Shown one piece after another: positions 13,762-56,279 of a stretch of 64,000 bases of DNA. The DNA is from Nitratifractor salsuginis DSM 16511. GTDB lineage: Bacteria; Campylobacterota; Campylobacteria; Campylobacterales; Sulfurovaceae. A model generated the notes under the pieces. That model was not told the DNA's origin and searched no databases. It saw only the letters and a list, made by a program, of their open reading frames with translations. The position numbers and the translations under genes were made by a program. The stretch's first letter is position 1, and each line of letters starts with the position of its first letter. The stretch spans positions 620,001 through 684,000 of the forward strand of contig NC_014935.1 of assembly GCF_000186245.1 (NCBI RefSeq), read 5' to 3'.

Positions 13762-13770
13762 GAAAGTATA

Positions 13771-13812
13771 ATGGAGAATGGAAAATTGAGGATGGAGAAT
13801 GGAGAATTTTGG
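13771..13812 (+). repeat. ATGGAGA heptamer array ending in ATTTTGG
   Basis: Six consecutive 7-bp units: ATGGAGA, ATGGAAA, ATTGAGG, ATGGAGA, ATGGAGA, ATTTTGG. The last unit is in register and is the same word that ends the unrelated ACTAGTA array at 40544-40550. A small stem AGAGAG/CTCTCT lies just downstream. Confidence 0.85.
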
Positions 13813-13889
13813 AGTAAGAGAGGCTTTTATGCTCTCTGGATGATTCTCATCCGGTTTTTCAATAGACAAACAACCAAACAATAAAACTT

Positions 13890-13913
13890 CTCAACACTCA
13901 ACACTCAACTCTC
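13890..13913 (+). repeat. CTCAACA heptamer array
   Basis: CTCAACA, CTCAACA, CTCAACT and a partial CTCC in tandem. With the array at 13771 it brackets a roughly 75-bp spacer without a gene; together they fill the galU-ileS gap. Confidence 0.8.
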
Positions 13914-37012: not shown

Positions 37013-37056
37013 TAGTCGCAAGTCACAGGCACAGGGCTTTGTCCCTCAAGTCGCAA
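37013..37056 (-). repeat. TTGCGACTTGA hairpin element
   Basis: On the minus strand the order is TTGCGACTTGA, a short stem AGGG...CCCT, TGTGCCTGTGAC, TTGCGACTA. The same order recurs at 48148-48190 and 40600-40643, while the stem sequence differs in each. Two GTCGTTA-type heptamers (37064-37086) follow on the plus strand. Confidence 0.75.
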
Positions 37057-39232: not shown

Positions 39233-40033
39233 ATGATTCTGATCGCCGGACCCTGCGTCATCGAAAACCGGGAGAATATCTTCCGGATCGCCGAGGCGTT
39301 GATGCCCTACCACGAGGATTGTACCAAGGAATTCTACTTCAAGGCCAGCTTCGACAAGGCCAACCGAACCTCTCTCGATAGTTTTCGAGGCCCCGGACTC
39401 GAAGAGGGGCTCAAGATCCTCCAGGAGGTCAAAGAGCGCTTCGGTTACTCCATTCTGACCGATATCCACGAGCCCGCCCAGGCTGCGCCGGTGGCCGAGG
39501 TGGCCGATGTGCTGCAGATCCCCGCCTTTCTCTGCCGGCAGACCGACCTGCTCGTCGCCGCGGCCAAGACCGGGGCCAAGGTCAACATCAAAAAGGGGCA
39601 ATTCCTCGCTCCCCAGGCGATGGAGTACTCCGTGGCCAAAGTCCTCAAAACCCGGGGATACGAGGGCGAAGTGAATTACGAGGCTTCGGAGAAATACGGA
39701 GTTTGGCTCACGGAGCGGGGCACGACCTTCGGTTACGGAAACCTGGTAGTCGATATGCGCTCTTTCCCCATCATGCGCCGATTCGCTCCGGTGGTGTTTG
39801 ACGCGACCCACTCGGTGCAGATGCCGGCCAGCGGCGGGGCCACCAGTGGCGGCGACAGCCGATTCGTCCCCACCCTGGCACGGGCGGCTGCGGGAGCGGG
39901 AGTGGACGGCTTCTTCTTCGAAACCCATTTCGACCCCTCCGTCGCCTTGAGCGATGGGCCCAATATGATAAAATTGCAAGACCTCGAGCGTCTGATTCCC
40001 CAGATCGACGCCATTCGCAGTATCGTAGAATAA
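39233..40033 (+). CDS. kdsA: 3-deoxy-8-phosphooctulonate synthase
   Basis: Makes KDO-8-phosphate from arabinose-5-phosphate and PEP for LPS. 266 residues; blocks [50 protein letters not shown] and FDATHSVQ. First of kdsA-ribH-nusB, a typical Campylobacterota order; the next start is 9 nt after the stop. Confidence 0.96.
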
Positions 40034-40042
40034 AGGAACAGT

Positions 40043-40513
40043 ATGAACATCGTCGAAGGAAACCTTCGGGTCGACCCAAGCAAAAAGGTCGCCATTATCT
40101 CCGCACGCTTTAATCATTTCATCACCGATCGCCTGGTAGAGGGGGCCAAAGATACCTATGCCCGCCTCGGCGGTGATCCCGAGAGCCTGGATCTGATCCT
40201 GGTACCGGGGGCCTTTGAGATCCCCTTCGCCCTGGACCGGGCGCTGGCTTCGGGCAAATACGACGCCGTCTGCTGCCTGGGCGCGGTGATCCGGGGAGCG
40301 ACGCCCCACTTCGACTATGTCTCCGCCGAAGCGACCAAGGGCATCGCCAACGTCACCCTCAAATATGCCAAGCCGGTCTCCTTCGGCGTGCTCACCGTCG
40401 ACAGCATCGAGCAGGCCATCGAACGGGCCGGCACCAAAGCGGGCAACAAAGGGGGCGAAGCGATGAGCAGCCTGATCGAGATGATCAACCTCTATGATGT
40501 AATGAGTAACTAG
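40043..40513 (+). CDS. ribH: 6,7-dimethyl-8-ribityllumazine synthase
   Basis: Penultimate step of riboflavin synthesis; forms a capsid-like oligomer. 156 residues with [30 protein letters not shown] and the catalytic His region; [20 protein letters not shown] completes the family pattern. The last codons and the TAG stop (40511-40513) overlap a heptamer array, so the C-terminal MSN residues are part of the repeat. Confidence 0.96.
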
Positions 40514-40570
40514 AAACTAGTAACTAGTAACTAGTAACTAGAAATTTTGGTATGCGTTGCTTTGCAACGC
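40509..40570 (+). repeat. ACTAGTA heptamer array, ATTTTGG, hairpin
   Basis: Units ACTAGAA, ACTAGTA x3, ACTAGAA, then ATTTTGG in register (40509-40550). TAT and the hairpin GCGTTGC-TTT-GCAACGC follow (40554-40570, 7-bp perfect stem, 3-nt loop). The array overlaps the ribH stop codon. Confidence 0.9.
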
Positions 40571-40599
40571 TTTCGTTAAATATAATAAATATAAAAAAC

Positions 40600-40643
40600 T
40601 TGCGACGTGAGGCGGCGTAGCCGCCGTGCTTGCGTCGTGCGAC
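40600..40643 (+). repeat. TTGCGAC-type hairpin element upstream of nusB
   Basis: TTGCGACGTGA, then the stem GGCGGC-GTA-GCCGCC (6 bp, 3-nt loop), then GTGCTTGCGTCGTGCGACC. Same order as 48148-48190 and 37013-37056. It ends 16 nt before the nusB start and could affect its expression. Confidence 0.8.
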
Positions 40644-40658
40644 CAAAAAAGGTGAAAT

Positions 40659-41090
40659 ATGGCGACACGACATCAGGCTAGACGGGCGGTAGTGGGTCTG
40701 CTCTATGCCTACGATCTGGGCAATGACGGGATCGAAAAGTTCAGTGAAGAGATCCTGGAGAGTGACAAGATCCGCAACAAGCAACGGGAATTTTCCATGC
40801 GGCTCTTCAAAGGGACCATCGAAAATCTCGACAAGATCGACGAAGAGATCCAGAAACATTTGGAGAGCTGGGACTACTCCAAGATCGGCAAAGTCGAAAA
40901 GGCGATCCTCCGCCTGGGAGCCTACGAAATCCTCATCGAGGGAACCGACCGCCCCATCATCATCAACGAAGCGGTGGAACTGGCCAAAGAGTTGGCCGAC
41001 GAGAAATCCCCGCAATTTATCAACGGGGTCCTAGATGCTGTCGGGAAACCGGTAGCGAAGCCGGAGGCGGCTTCGAATAATGAGGAATGA
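40659..41090 (+). CDS. nusB: Transcription antitermination protein NusB
   Basis: RNA-binding antitermination factor for rRNA operons, 143 residues. N-terminal RHQARRAVVGLLYAYDLG and C-terminal AILRLGAYEIL ... INEAVELAKELADEKSPQFINGVLDAV are the NusB core. A short tail follows (KPVAKPEAASNNEE), whose last residues and TGA stop fall inside the AATGAGG array. Confidence 0.95.
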   Translation: MATRHQARRAVVGLLYAYDLGNDGIEKFSEEILESDKIRNKQREFSMRLFKGTIENLDKIDEEIQKHLESWDYSKIGKVEKAILRLGAYEILIEGTDRPIIINEAVELAKELADEKSPQFINGVLDAVGKPVAKPEAASNNEE

Positions 41091-41205
41091 GGAATTAGGA
41101 ATGAGGAATTATGGTCAGCGTTGCAGGGCAACGCACTATATTCAAAAAAGAGGTGTCGCGAAGCGACAAGAACCGAAATTTCTCATTTCTCATTTCTCAT
41201 TTCTC
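41079..41205 (+). repeat. Mirror-symmetric composite heptamer element
   Basis: Left arm: AATGAGG, AATGAGG, AATTAGG, AATGAGG, AATTATGG (41079-41114). Then hairpin GCGTTGC-AGG-GCAACGC (41118-41134) and hairpin TGTCGC-GAA-GCGACA (41154-41168). Right arm: CCGAAATTTCTC and three further ATTTCTC units (41173-41205), which read on the other strand as AATGAGA-type units followed by AATTTCGG. Both arrays therefore point inward. It fills the nusB-mqnC gap and covers the nusB stop codon. Confidence 0.9.
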
Positions 41206-41231
41206 ATTCATACGCATAAAGGAGCCCATTT

Positions 41232-42275
41232 ATGCGTATGACCATCGACGAGGCGGTGGATCTGATCCGGAACGCCGATCTCAAAGAGTTGGGGCGGATG
41301 GCCTATGCCCGCAAAAAGGAGCTGCATCCCAAAGGGGTGACGACTTTCGTGGTGGACCGCAACATCAACTACACCAACGTATGCTGGGTCGATTGCAAAT
41401 TCTGCGCCTTTTACCGCCACGAGAAGAATGACGACGCCTACATCCTGAGCTTCGAGGAGATCGATCAAAAGATCGAGGAGCTTCTGGCCATTGGGGGGAC
41501 CCAGATCCTCTTTCAGGGAGGGGTGCATCCCAAGCTGGAGATCGAGTGGTACGAGGATCTGGTGGAGCATATTCATAAGAAATATCCGCAAATAACCATC
41601 CACGGCTTCAGCGCCATCGAGATCGACTACATCGCCAAACGTTCCAATATCTCCATCCGGGAGGTGCTCCGCAGGCTCCACGCCAAAGGGCTGGCCTCCA
41701 TCCCCGGGGCCGGAGCGGAGATCCTCAGCGACCGGGTGCGGGATATCATCGCTCCCAAGAAGCTGGACAAGGATACTTGGCTGGAGGTCCATCGCGAAGC
41801 CCACAAGCTGGGGATCAAATCCACGGCGACGATGATGTACGGCACCGTGGAGACCGACCGGGAGATCGTGGAGCATTTCGATCATATCCGCCGGCTCCAG
41901 GATGAGACGGGGGGATTTCGGGCCTTTATTATGTGGTCTTTCCAGGGCAAAAACACCCGACTGGTCGAAGAGATCCCCGAGATCCGCAAACAGTCGGCCA
42001 ACCGCTATCTACGGCTCCTGGCGGTCGCCCGGCTCTTCCTGGACAATGTCCCCAACATCCAAAGCTCCTGGGTCACCCAGGGCAGCTACATTGGACAGAT
42101 GGCACTGCTCTGGGGAGCCAATGACCTGGGCAGCACGATGATGGAGGAGAATGTAGTCTCCGCCGCCGGGGCCAGCAACCGGATGAACCAGGAGGAGATG
42201 ATCCGCCTCATCCGCGACATCGGCGAACGCCCCGCCAAAAGGAACACCGCTTATGAAATTCTCGAATATTTTTGA
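41232..42275 (+). CDS. mqnC: Cyclic dehypoxanthinyl futalosine synthase
   Basis: Radical SAM enzyme of the futalosine menaquinone pathway, used across Campylobacterota in place of the classical Men route. 347 residues; cluster cysteines Cys51, Cys55, Cys58 in CWVDCKFCAF, preceded by VVDRNINYTNV, with GGTQILFQGGVHP and IPGAGAEILSDRVR. AAAGGAGCCC precedes the start. The TGA stop (42273-42275) merges with an AATGAGG array. Other menaquinone genes are not in the window. Confidence 0.95.
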   Translation: MRMTIDEAVDLIRNADLKELGRMAYARKKELHPKGVTTFVVDRNINYTNVCWVDCKFCAFYRHEKNDDAYILSFEEIDQKIEELLAIGGTQILFQGGVHPKLEIEWYEDLVEHIHKKYPQITIHGFSAIEIDYIAKRSNISIREVLRRLHAKGLASIPGAGAEILSDRVRDIIAPKKLDKDTWLEVHREAHKLGIKSTATMMYGTVETDREIVEHFDHIRRLQDETGGFRAFIMWSFQGKNTRLVEEIPEIRKQSANRYLRLLAVARLFLDNVPNIQSSWVTQGSYIGQMALLWGANDLGSTMMEENVVSAAGASNRMNQEEMIRLIRDIGERPAKRNTAYEILEYF

Positions 42276-42372
42276 ATGAGGAATGAGGAATGAGGAATGA
42301 GGAATTTCGGAAGGCGGTGCAGTGGCTCCGCTCAATTTTTACTCAGCGCTCAACGCTCAGCGCTCAACGCTC
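42275..42372 (+). repeat. AATGAGG array, AATTTCGG, decayed stem, CTCAACG array
   Basis: Four AATGAGG units (42275-42302), AATTTCGG (42303-42310), an imperfect stem GCGGTGC-AGT-GGCTCCGC, then CTCAGCG, CTCAACG, CTCAGCG, CTCAACG (42342-42369). First base shared with the mqnC stop. Confidence 0.85.
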
Positions 42373-42418
42373 GATATTGAAGATTATTACAGCGATTTTT
42401 ATAGTTCAAGGAACAATT

Positions 42419-43657
42419 ATGGCCGCAACACTGATGCACGTTACCGTCAAAGGGGTCAAGATCCCCGTCGTCTTCGAAAAGGAGAAACGCCTTCCCCTGG
42501 CGTCGATGGAGCTTGTGTTCCGCGATAGCGGGTCCCTAGCCGATACGGTGCCGGGGATCGCACGCTTCAGCGCCGGGATCCTGGGAGAGGGGACCCGCAA
42601 AGAGGGGGCCATCGCCTTCGCCGAGGCTCTGGAGAACCGGGCGGTGCAGCTGCACGCCGATACGGGTCGGGAGACCTTCGTCCTCTCTCTCGAAGCACTC
42701 AAGAGTGAATTCGACTTTGGTTTGGGGAAACTTTCCGAGCTGCTGCGTGACCCCAACCTGACTCCCGAAGCCTTCAAAAAGGTGCAGACCCAGACCCTGG
42801 GCAAGCTGCGCCAAAAAGAGAGCGACTTTGACTACATCGCCGCGACCAAGCTGCGCTCGATCCTCTTCGAGGGGACTCCGCTGGCCCATCCGGCACTGGG
42901 AACTCCCGAAAGCATCAGCCATCTGAAATTGGAGCAGGTCGAGAGCTATCTGAAGGATCATCTGCATCTGGAGAATCTTATCGTGGTCATCGGGGGCAAG
43001 TTCACTCCCGAGGAGGTGAAAAAGGCGGTCGAAAAGGCGGCTGAAGCACTGACTCACGGAGAGGTGGCCCCCATCCCCCATTTCAGCGCCAACGACAAAG
43101 AACGCGAAGTCGTCACCCCCGAAGAGACGGACCAAGCCTATATCTACTTCGGAGCCCCCTACGCGATGGAGGCCAATGATACCCACCGGGTTTACGGCAA
43201 AGTGGCGGCTTTCATCCTGGGAAGCGGGGGGTTCGGCAGCCGCCTGATGGAGGAGGTGCGGGTCAAGCGGGGCCTGGCCTACTCCGCCTACGGCCGTCTG
43301 GCAGTCCAGCGCACCCACAGCTATTTCAGCGGATACCTCCAGACCAAACTCGAGAGTCAGAAAGAGGCCCAAAAGGTGGTCAAGGAGGTGGTCGACCGTT
43401 TCCTCAAAGGTGGGGTCAGCGCCGAGGAGCTGGAGAGCGCCAAAAAGTTCTTTTTAGGCAGCGAGCCCCTGCGCACCGAGACCCTCTCCCAGCGTATGAG
43501 CCGGGCTTTCCACGAGTATTACGACGGATTGGGGCTTGAGTGGTCGGCCAAAGAGCTGGAGATGATCCGGACGATGAAGCTGGAGGATCTGAATGCCTTT
43601 ATTCACGCCCATCCTGAGATCGGGAAGTTGAGTTGGTCGATCGTCACGAAAAAGTAG
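42419..43657 (+). CDS. M16 family peptidase-like protein lacking the zinc motif
   Basis: 412 residues from ATG 42419 with AAGGA before it; the in-frame region up to 42290 is repeat DNA. Two M16 half-domains are visible, with the second half block GSGGFGSRLMEEVRVKRGLAYSAYG. The HxxEH zinc site is replaced (GIARFSAGILGEGT), so this is probably a non-catalytic M16 protein, as in the partner subunits of M16B pairs. No signal peptide is clear. The place directly after mqnC matches other Campylobacterota. Confidence 0.85.
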   Translation: MAATLMHVTVKGVKIPVVFEKEKRLPLASMELVFRDSGSLADTVPGIARFSAGILGEGTRKEGAIAFAEALENRAVQLHADTGRETFVLSLEALKSEFDFGLGKLSELLRDPNLTPEAFKKVQTQTLGKLRQKESDFDYIAATKLRSILFEGTPLAHPALGTPESISHLKLEQVESYLKDHLHLENLIVVIGGKFTPEEVKKAVEKAAEALTHGEVAPIPHFSANDKEREVVTPEETDQAYIYFGAPYAMEANDTHRVYGKVAAFILGSGGFGSRLMEEVRVKRGLAYSAYGRLAVQRTHSYFSGYLQTKLESQKEAQKVVKEVVDRFLKGGVSAEELESAKKFFLGSEPLRTETLSQRMSRAFHEYYDGLGLEWSAKELEMIRTMKLEDLNAFIHAHPEIGKLSWSIVTKK

Positions 43658-43680
43658 TTTAGCGGTTTCCCTCTTCATTT

Positions 43681-43730
43681 CTTTTTCTTTGTTTTGCGAC
43701 AAAGAAAAAGGAAACGAAGCAAAGAAAAAG
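43681..43730 (+). repeat. CAAAGAAAAAG inverted and direct repeat
   Basis: CTTTTTCTTTG (43681-43691) and CAAAGAAAAAG (43700-43710) form an 11-bp perfect stem with an 8-nt loop. CAAAGAAAAAG recurs at 43720-43730. Not a clear terminator by itself. Confidence 0.7.
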
Positions 43731-43737
43731 AAAACGC

Positions 43738-43758
43738 AAGGGACTGACGTCCTTTTTT
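43738..43758 (+). terminator. Terminator after the M16-like gene
   Basis: AAGGGAC-TGAC-GTCCTT stem (one G-T pair) running into T6. Located 80 nt after the stop codon. Confidence 0.6.
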
Positions 43759-43908
43759 GATCTTCCAATGATATATAAGCTCATTTGACATAAAAGATTT
43801 CCTAATCCAAAACTTCAAGAATATTGCAAATTGTTTATAAAACTTCTTCTAACCCTACTTTATTCTGTAATATTCTAAAGAGTAAATATGATTTTCACTC
43901 CAACCAGA

Positions 43909-44021
43909 GCTTTCACTCGATAGCTCTGGCAGTCGCAAACACCTGCGGTGCCCCTTCGGGGTTGAGTGCTCCTTTGTCGCCATCGAGTGAAAGCTCCATC
44001 GCAAATATTGGATTAATGGTC
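43909..44021 (+). repeat. 113-bp palindromic repeat element, copy B
   Basis: Same element as 21312-21424; the four differences are all in the last 25 bases. Here the outer arms are 15 bp (43907-43921 with 43982-43996). It ends 32 nt upstream of the recG start, so it lies in the recG 5' region and could be transcribed with it. The remaining bases 43759-43906 hold nothing recognisable. Confidence 0.85.
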
Positions 44022-56129: not shown

Positions 56130-56257
56130 AATGAGGAATGAGGAATTAGGAATGAGGAATTTCGGTATGCAATGCGATAGCATTGCTCTTTTTGAGAAGG
56201 AGACGTTGCAAAGCAATGTAACCCGCAACTATTCACTATTCACTATTCACCATTCAC
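56130..56257 (+). repeat. Composite heptamer element, two hairpins
   Basis: AATGAGG, AATGAGG, AATTAGG, AATGAGG, AATTTCGG (56130-56165). Then hairpin GCAATGC-GATA-GCATTGC (56169-56186) and hairpin ACGTTGC-AAA-GCAATGT (56203-56219). It ends with TATTCAC x3, CATTCAC (56230-56257). Same plan as 41079-41205 but with a different right-hand word. Confidence 0.9.
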
Positions 56258-56279
56258 CAGACTCCGAAGGAGAAAGATA

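Follow-up and report, generated by a model that had tools for sequence, protein, structure and literature searches.

What kind of element is the small, mirror-symmetric arrangement of heptamers and hairpins that lies between nusB and mqnC in the deep-sea bacterium Nitratifractor salsuginis? The element occupies positions 41079 to 41208 of the analyzed window, a 64,000-nucleotide stretch (C1:620001-684000) of the 2,101,285-bp, single-contig source genome. It is flanked by a gene that we take, from its conservation, to be nusB (40659 to 41090, forward strand) and by what is presumably mqnC, encoding a radical-SAM enzyme of menaquinone biosynthesis (41232 to 42275, forward strand). It is likely that the element is a gene-less, nonautonomous member of an intergenic two-component repeat system that resembles the intervening sequences (IVSs) of rRNA genes and is organized like the REPIN-RAYT systems (paired repetitive extragenic palindromic [REP] sequences and their associated tyrosine transposase) but without a RAYT.

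As read from the sequence, the element consists of four AATGAGG-type heptamers, the inner word AATTATGG, a 7-bp hairpin, a spacer, a 6-bp hairpin, the inner word CCGAAATT, and four inverted AATGAGA heptamers. The left arm (41079 to 41109, forward strand) comprises AATGAGG at 41079 to 41085 and 41086 to 41092, AATTAGG at 41093 to 41099, AATGAGG at 41100 to 41106, and a final AAT, and it runs into AATTATGG, a word of the RRTTNNGG class, at 41107 to 41114. The hairpins GCGTTGC-AGG-GCAACGC (41118 to 41134) and TGTCGC-GAA-GCGACA (41154 to 41168), both given on the forward strand, are followed by CCGAAATT (41173 to 41180; AATTTCGG on the minus strand, to which it is assigned) and by the right arm, four AATGAGA units on the minus strand at 41178 to 41208, which pairs with the left arm in a 31-bp stem. 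An earlier note on this stretch had described inward-pointing arrays, inner words, and two perfect stems with 3-nucleotide loops, all of which direct reading confirmed, with four units per side; the right edge, which it had placed at 41205, belongs at 41208. Its statement that the element holds no open reading frame (ORF) is not quite right, since the nusB frame extends into the left array with its final 12 bases, among them the TGA stop at 41088 to 41090. The 130-nucleotide RNA is predicted to fold into the 31-bp stem enclosing both hairpins (-58.2 kcal/mol, z = -9.65), and the same sequence folded as DNA gives a z score of -6.9. A search with Rfam over 40000 to 44000 returned only subthreshold chance matches and none at the element.

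The arrays of this element belong to a large genomic population. Counts for the source genome draw on 400 kb sampled at even spacing, together with the window and the surroundings of array matches. Period-7 arrays numbered 68 in 464 kb, whereas each other period gave 0 to 7 and block-shuffled sequence gave 0, so that the possibility raised in the earlier note, that such arrays might be no commoner than in shuffled DNA, does not hold. Extrapolation from the 57 arrays in the evenly spaced sample gives about 300 genome-wide. Array lengths peak at 30 to 32 nucleotides, corresponding to four units plus three bases. With polarity assigned by the G-rich strand, neighboring arrays (those no more than 250 bp apart) formed 32 convergent and 0 divergent pairs in the source genome, and the totals including Nitratifractor relatives, other Campylobacterota, Clostridia, Bacteroidota, and Verrucomicrobiota were 131 convergent and 3 divergent, the Verrucomicrobiota contributing 3 and 1 from a sample whose small size and high density keep it from demonstrating the rule by itself. 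Left and right arms, which the earlier note had considered might never be paired elsewhere, are paired throughout the source genome and in other phyla. The unit order AATGAGG-AATGAGG-AATTAGG-AATGAGG was found at four genomic loci, which argues that arrays are copied rather than made anew each time.

The same grammar extends to distant lineages. The pattern TGAGGAATGAGGAATTNNGG was scanned in one genome per species across 84,980 species, and the matches listed included Clostridia, Bacteroidota, Verrucomicrobiota, and Campylobacterota. Many of these listed matches consisted of four AATKAGG units, AATTNNGG, and, no more than a few bases farther on, a hairpin that differs in sequence from lineage to lineage. 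When 190 array ends were taken from 20 evenly spaced 20-kb stretches and from loci picked for carrying an array or a closely similar pattern, a perfect hairpin came next after AxTKAGGARTTNNGG in 126 (6 expected from shuffles). A double-hairpin unit, GGAGGCGGGACTTTAGTCCCGC...GCAGGGCTCAAGCCCTGCCTCC, trails array ends within the genus Nitratifractor (L268 2237, L146, and L215), and its first half, AGGCGGGACTTTAGTCCCGC, also trails array ends in other Campylobacterota.

Genes normally lie outside the arms. A blind search for ORFs enclosed by converging arrays returned the same protein of approximately 120 amino acids in Nitratifractor, a Eubacterium, and another Clostridia metagenome-assembled genome (MAG). 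This protein belongs to PF05635, the 23S rRNA intervening-sequence protein (S23p or IVP; TIGR02436, four helix bundle protein), of which a relative, encoded by Bacteroides thetaiotaomicron VPI-5482, has a solved structure (PDB 2rld), as does the S23p of Xanthomonas campestris (PDB 2GSC). Among 76 distinct PF05635 genes drawn from Campylobacterota, Clostridia, Bacteroidota, and Verrucomicrobiota, 59 had flanking inverted repeats scoring at least 30, versus 6 of 119 control ORFs, and the top-scoring controls lie in the same IVP loci as the tested genes. The flanking repeats are mostly heptamer arrays, with a few of period 8 or 9. The source genome has five S23p loci, one of them a broken gene, each with its own word on both arms: AATGAGG, GATTTTG, AGTAACCG, GTTGAGC, and AAGTCGC. 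In the AATGAGG copy (gene at C1:132344-132643, L337), the array provides the start codon and first residues (MRNEEPK), and the far arm ends with AATGTCGG and a hairpin, resembling the gene-less elements. The element at 41079 to 41208 has no room for such a gene within 41109 to 41178, and no PF05635 match was found anywhere in the window; its right-arm word also flanks an S23p gene in a relative (G009, locus L350). The gene-bearing form, in which S23p genes lie between convergent arrays of a matching word, is the new finding here.

S23p genes occupy conserved sites across species and even families, with proteins 54 to 98% identical. The word nevertheless varies from one species to the next, and within a species the two arms of a gene match, a combination that follows the logic of REPIN-RAYT. 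Genes at the same site that are 79 to 81% identical nevertheless carry different words, AAGTCGC or AACTAGT. About 10 conserved sites recur among relatives (G001 to G013 and G031), one of them common to a genome of another family (G027), which suggests long residence or site preference. A dispersed palindrome family, TTGCGACKTGAGG..CCGTGCTTGCGA, is present in the window at 40600 to 40650 and at 37056 (minus strand); it is likewise found next to the S23p gene at C1:615677 and therefore probably belongs to the AAGTCGC word family of that gene.

The words of the dispersed arrays are those of the genes. In a sample of 133 arrays, which includes the two arms of one S23p gene, 84 are identical in word to a repeat that flanks an S23p gene in the genus (15.8 for shuffled words), and 129 are within one mismatch of such a word (approximately 66 for shuffled words). 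The arrays also follow the gene in distribution. Nitratifractor genomes with four to eight PF05635 genes carry arrays, and no arrays were found in G003, G004, and G012, which have no PF05635 gene (G012 being 73% complete), or in G008, which has one gene without heptamer arms. Arbitrary stretches of complete genomes, taken as a follow-up, gave 11 arrays per 100 kb in G027, with five PF05635 genes, and 0 arrays in 160 kb in G015, G039, and G033, with none. Gene copies and array density are correlated (Spearman rho of 0.76, from loci fetched for other reasons and uncorrected for phylogeny). The link between S23p and the arrays is established in this sense, by association.

Occupied and empty orthologous sites were compared, as the earlier note had proposed. 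Between nusB and mqnC, the majority of family members farther removed from the source genome, and the array-free Nitratifractor relatives G008 and G012, have a gap of only about 10 to 20 bp; it is longer, again without arrays, in array-free G003. In relatives that carry arrays, the insert is longer and its array stacks are quite different. Relative to these genomes, the element was gained at this site, and it combines two features of miniature inverted-repeat transposable elements, namely, terminal inverted repeats and empty orthologous sites. Between the close relatives G001, G002, and G007, arrays differ by whole units gained or lost, the word can change while the adjoining hairpin stays, and one composite of approximately 79 bp is present or absent. 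At one site the word has changed on both arms. The element is neither a chance arrangement nor plain slippage, and the preference of the earlier note for a mobile or recombination-made unit is supported by the excess of arrays over shuffled DNA, the pairing of arms, and the existence of gene-bearing versions with matching arms. Slippage does act on the arrays, as the shifts in unit number by whole heptamers between close relatives attest.

In the system proposed here, the parent form would be an intergenic relative of the IVSs in which a pair of inverted arrays, each of about four heptamers and many with a hairpin adjoining the arm, encloses a PF05635 gene for a four-helix-bundle protein of about 120 amino acids. 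The two arms of an S23p gene share a word particular to that gene, and these words recur in gene-less arrays dispersed through intergenic DNA. As in REPIN-RAYT systems, a gene that stays in place and passes mostly by vertical descent, with its repeat on either side, would coexist with dispersed gene-less inverted repeats. S23p may recognize its own arms, in the form of single-stranded DNA or RNA hairpins, and promote their copying or homogenization by host enzymes. Copying probably proceeds via host replication or recombination, because RVT_1 reverse transcriptases are absent from the complete genome and no Y1 transposase is seen in several relatives rich in arrays. The transcript of the element may, as in rRNA IVSs, be a target of RNase III between nusB and mqnC. 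A broader proposition, for and against which we find the case evenly balanced, is that S23p/IVP is the protein half of a widespread REPIN-like system in at least four phyla, in which each paralogue maintains and spreads its own inverted four-unit word with no transposase or reverse transcriptase of its own.

Several observations weigh against this interpretation. S23p genes with arms are present in G038 (two) and G031 (one), which have only about 1 to 2 arrays per 100 kb, so S23p alone is insufficient for array abundance. No PF05635 match was found in 6 of 20 array-bearing genomes of other lineages (mostly draft MAGs), and the co-distribution statistics as a whole carry no correction for shared ancestry. 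Arms are alignable in only 28 of 74 gene-less pairs, meaning that many such pairs mix two words. The one clean filled/empty site (L270 1677) has only a 2-bp overlap, with no clear target-site duplication, and neither a copying step nor transposition was observed. Wobble pairs give no backing to selection at the RNA level. In Coxiella, the authors of the study describing the S23p-bearing IVS conclude that S23p is probably not made there (PMC4990558).

Among alternative explanations, the one that survives best, though it is unlikely, is replication slippage without a dedicated protein, in which repeated seven-base slips of a polymerase halted ahead of a hairpin, on one strand or the other, leave inward-pointing arrays. 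The placement of arrays 5' of hairpins on both strands fits such a process, as do the whole-heptamer changes between close relatives and the few very long arrays of approximately 21 and 13 units. It does not predict the four-unit mode, the single order of unit variants at four loci, the conserved AATTNNGG end in several phyla, or the linkage to PF05635.

It is very unlikely that the elements are selected regulatory structures, such as bidirectional terminators, mRNA stabilizers, or gyrase-type sites, with S23p as a passenger. Their intergenic position, the strong folding of the transcript, and the hairpin and T-run that follow several arrays would suit such a role, but gene-less pairs lie between divergent (22), codirectional (36), and convergent (13) genes with no preference for the convergent context, which removes the case for terminators, and the word at a single site turns over quickly. 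The transcribed strand shows no wobble-pair bias; selection for RNA pairing, hinted at by the difference in energy between the two strands of the 41079 to 41208 copy, was rejected since wobble-type mismatches are not in excess overall.

The least probable alternative, spread of REP- or REPIN-type elements by a RAYT or IS200-like Y1 transposase, can point to the paired inverted hairpins and to nine PF01797 matches in the source genome, but the heptamer element lacks a GTAG or CGTC foot, the array-rich draft genomes G002, G005, G006, G007, and G010 have no Y1_Tnp (PF01797) match, and the genes that the blind scan uncovered within arms, in two phyla, are PF05635. Y1/RAYT transposases (PF01797) and RVT_1 reverse transcriptases (PF00078; none in the complete genome) were rejected as array makers, since neither covaried with the arrays. 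One of the nine PF01797 matches is a RAYT-like gene at 479 to 950 of the window, flanked by GTAG hairpins; the unit as a whole (262 to 985), with the Y1 transposase ORF beginning at 479 and GTAGGGTGCGC palindromes on both sides, looks like an ordinary REP-RAYT unit near the heptamer system. Beyond about position 850, its conserved C-terminal portion is read in a different frame, and the gene is therefore probably frameshifted.

The window holds further heptamer arrays, all given on the forward strand. A second gene-less composite, at 42274 to 42372, has four AATGAGG units, AATTTCGG, and a hairpin, followed by an inverted GTTGAGC-type array, and its arms do not cofold (z = -0.6). A third, at 56130 to 56258, has an AATGAGG arm whose unit variants are ordered as in the element at 41079, hairpins, and an inverted GTGAATA-type arm (z = -4.6), and a fourth, at 13770 to 13913, pairs an AATGGAG arm ending in TTTTGG with an inverted GTTGAG-type arm. 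At 40505 to 40564, a single-sided AACTAGT array is accompanied by AATTTTGG and the hairpin GCGTTGC-TTT-GCAACGC. Elsewhere in the genome, oversized arrays of about 21 and about 13 AATGAGG units and of 11 AGTGGGT units, at C1:99209, C1:1878340, and C1:448660 (L097, L101, and L013), unlike the usual four-unit arrays, are candidate hypervariable loci. The window also has two other inverted repeats. At 41211 to 41243, CATACGCATAAA-GGAGCCCA-TTTATGCGTATG sets what is likely the mqnC ribosome-binding site into the loop of a hairpin. At 43656 to 43775, a strong inverted repeat (TTTCTTTTTCTTTG...CAAAGAAAAAG...) matches only itself in 464 kb of the source genome; in relatives, a segment of it of about 80 bp recurs at dozens of places with 86 to 96% identity.

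To our knowledge, heptamer repeats have no accepted origin and the S23p/IVP family has no known function, the protein having long been known mainly as a passenger of rRNA IVSs. Their linkage suggests that each explains the other, and both become testable as a two-component system. If this is true, the rRNA IVSs are a special case of a general intergenic element, and the system is a non-RAYT example of a population made up of a gene and its dispersed repeats. In the open-licence literature, the only paper found to join S23p and heptamer repeats describes a single IVS of Coxiella.

REPIN-RAYT systems have, like the system described here, dispersed paired inverted repeats and a resident gene flanked by the same repeat. 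They differ in having a Y1 transposase and GTAG palindromes in place of PF05635 and tandem heptamers. The repeats described here do not need a resident RAYT, as array-rich relatives (draft genomes) have no PF01797 match, and the palindromes of the element have no GTAG/CGTC foot. The STRR and SDR repeats of cyanobacteria, likened here by description only, reportedly consist of tandem heptamers with embedded hairpin elements and nested insertions. Heptamers are the commonest class of long simple repeats in many bacterial genomes (Mrazek 2007, cited in PMC4679880). Among them, the TAACTGA repeats of Beggiatoaceae, Cyanobacteria, and Bacteroidetes are likewise intergenic arrays common to distant phyla; they have another word and lie mostly just upstream of start codons, and the available part of their description reports only one inverted repeat and no associated gene (PMC4679880). 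Closer in form are the GGGAATC arrays of Xanthomonas, which mostly have four units, form 70 to 75 convergent pairs per genome, and are intergenic, beginning close to the 5' neighboring gene (PMC4692102). Four units, a convergent pair, and an intergenic position are all found in the element at 41079 to 41208. The Xanthomonas repeats have a different word, and the available part of their description discusses G-quadruplexes and notes no S23p link, inner word, or hairpin (PMC4692102).

The closest comparison is with the S23p-bearing rRNA IVSs of Coxiella and Leptospira, in which, as here, the S23p gene lies inside terminal inverted repeats (PMC4990558). In the Coxiella IVS, three GACAGAT units and one GACAGAA precede the S23p start, the number of units varies by strain, and the ends form a 28-bp stem that is cut by RNase III; the S23p of Xanthomonas is a pentamer (PMC4990558). 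IVSs are located in rRNA helices and excised by RNase III, whereas the present system is intergenic, with several words per genome, and its 41079 to 41208 copy lies between nusB and mqnC rather than in helix 25 or 45 of 23S rRNA and encloses no S23p ORF. Strain-variable tandem heptamers upstream of S23p and a long terminal stem are common to the Coxiella IVS and the system described here (PMC4990558), and the element itself has both the tandem heptamers in its arms and the long-stem terminal inverted repeats, of 31 bp.
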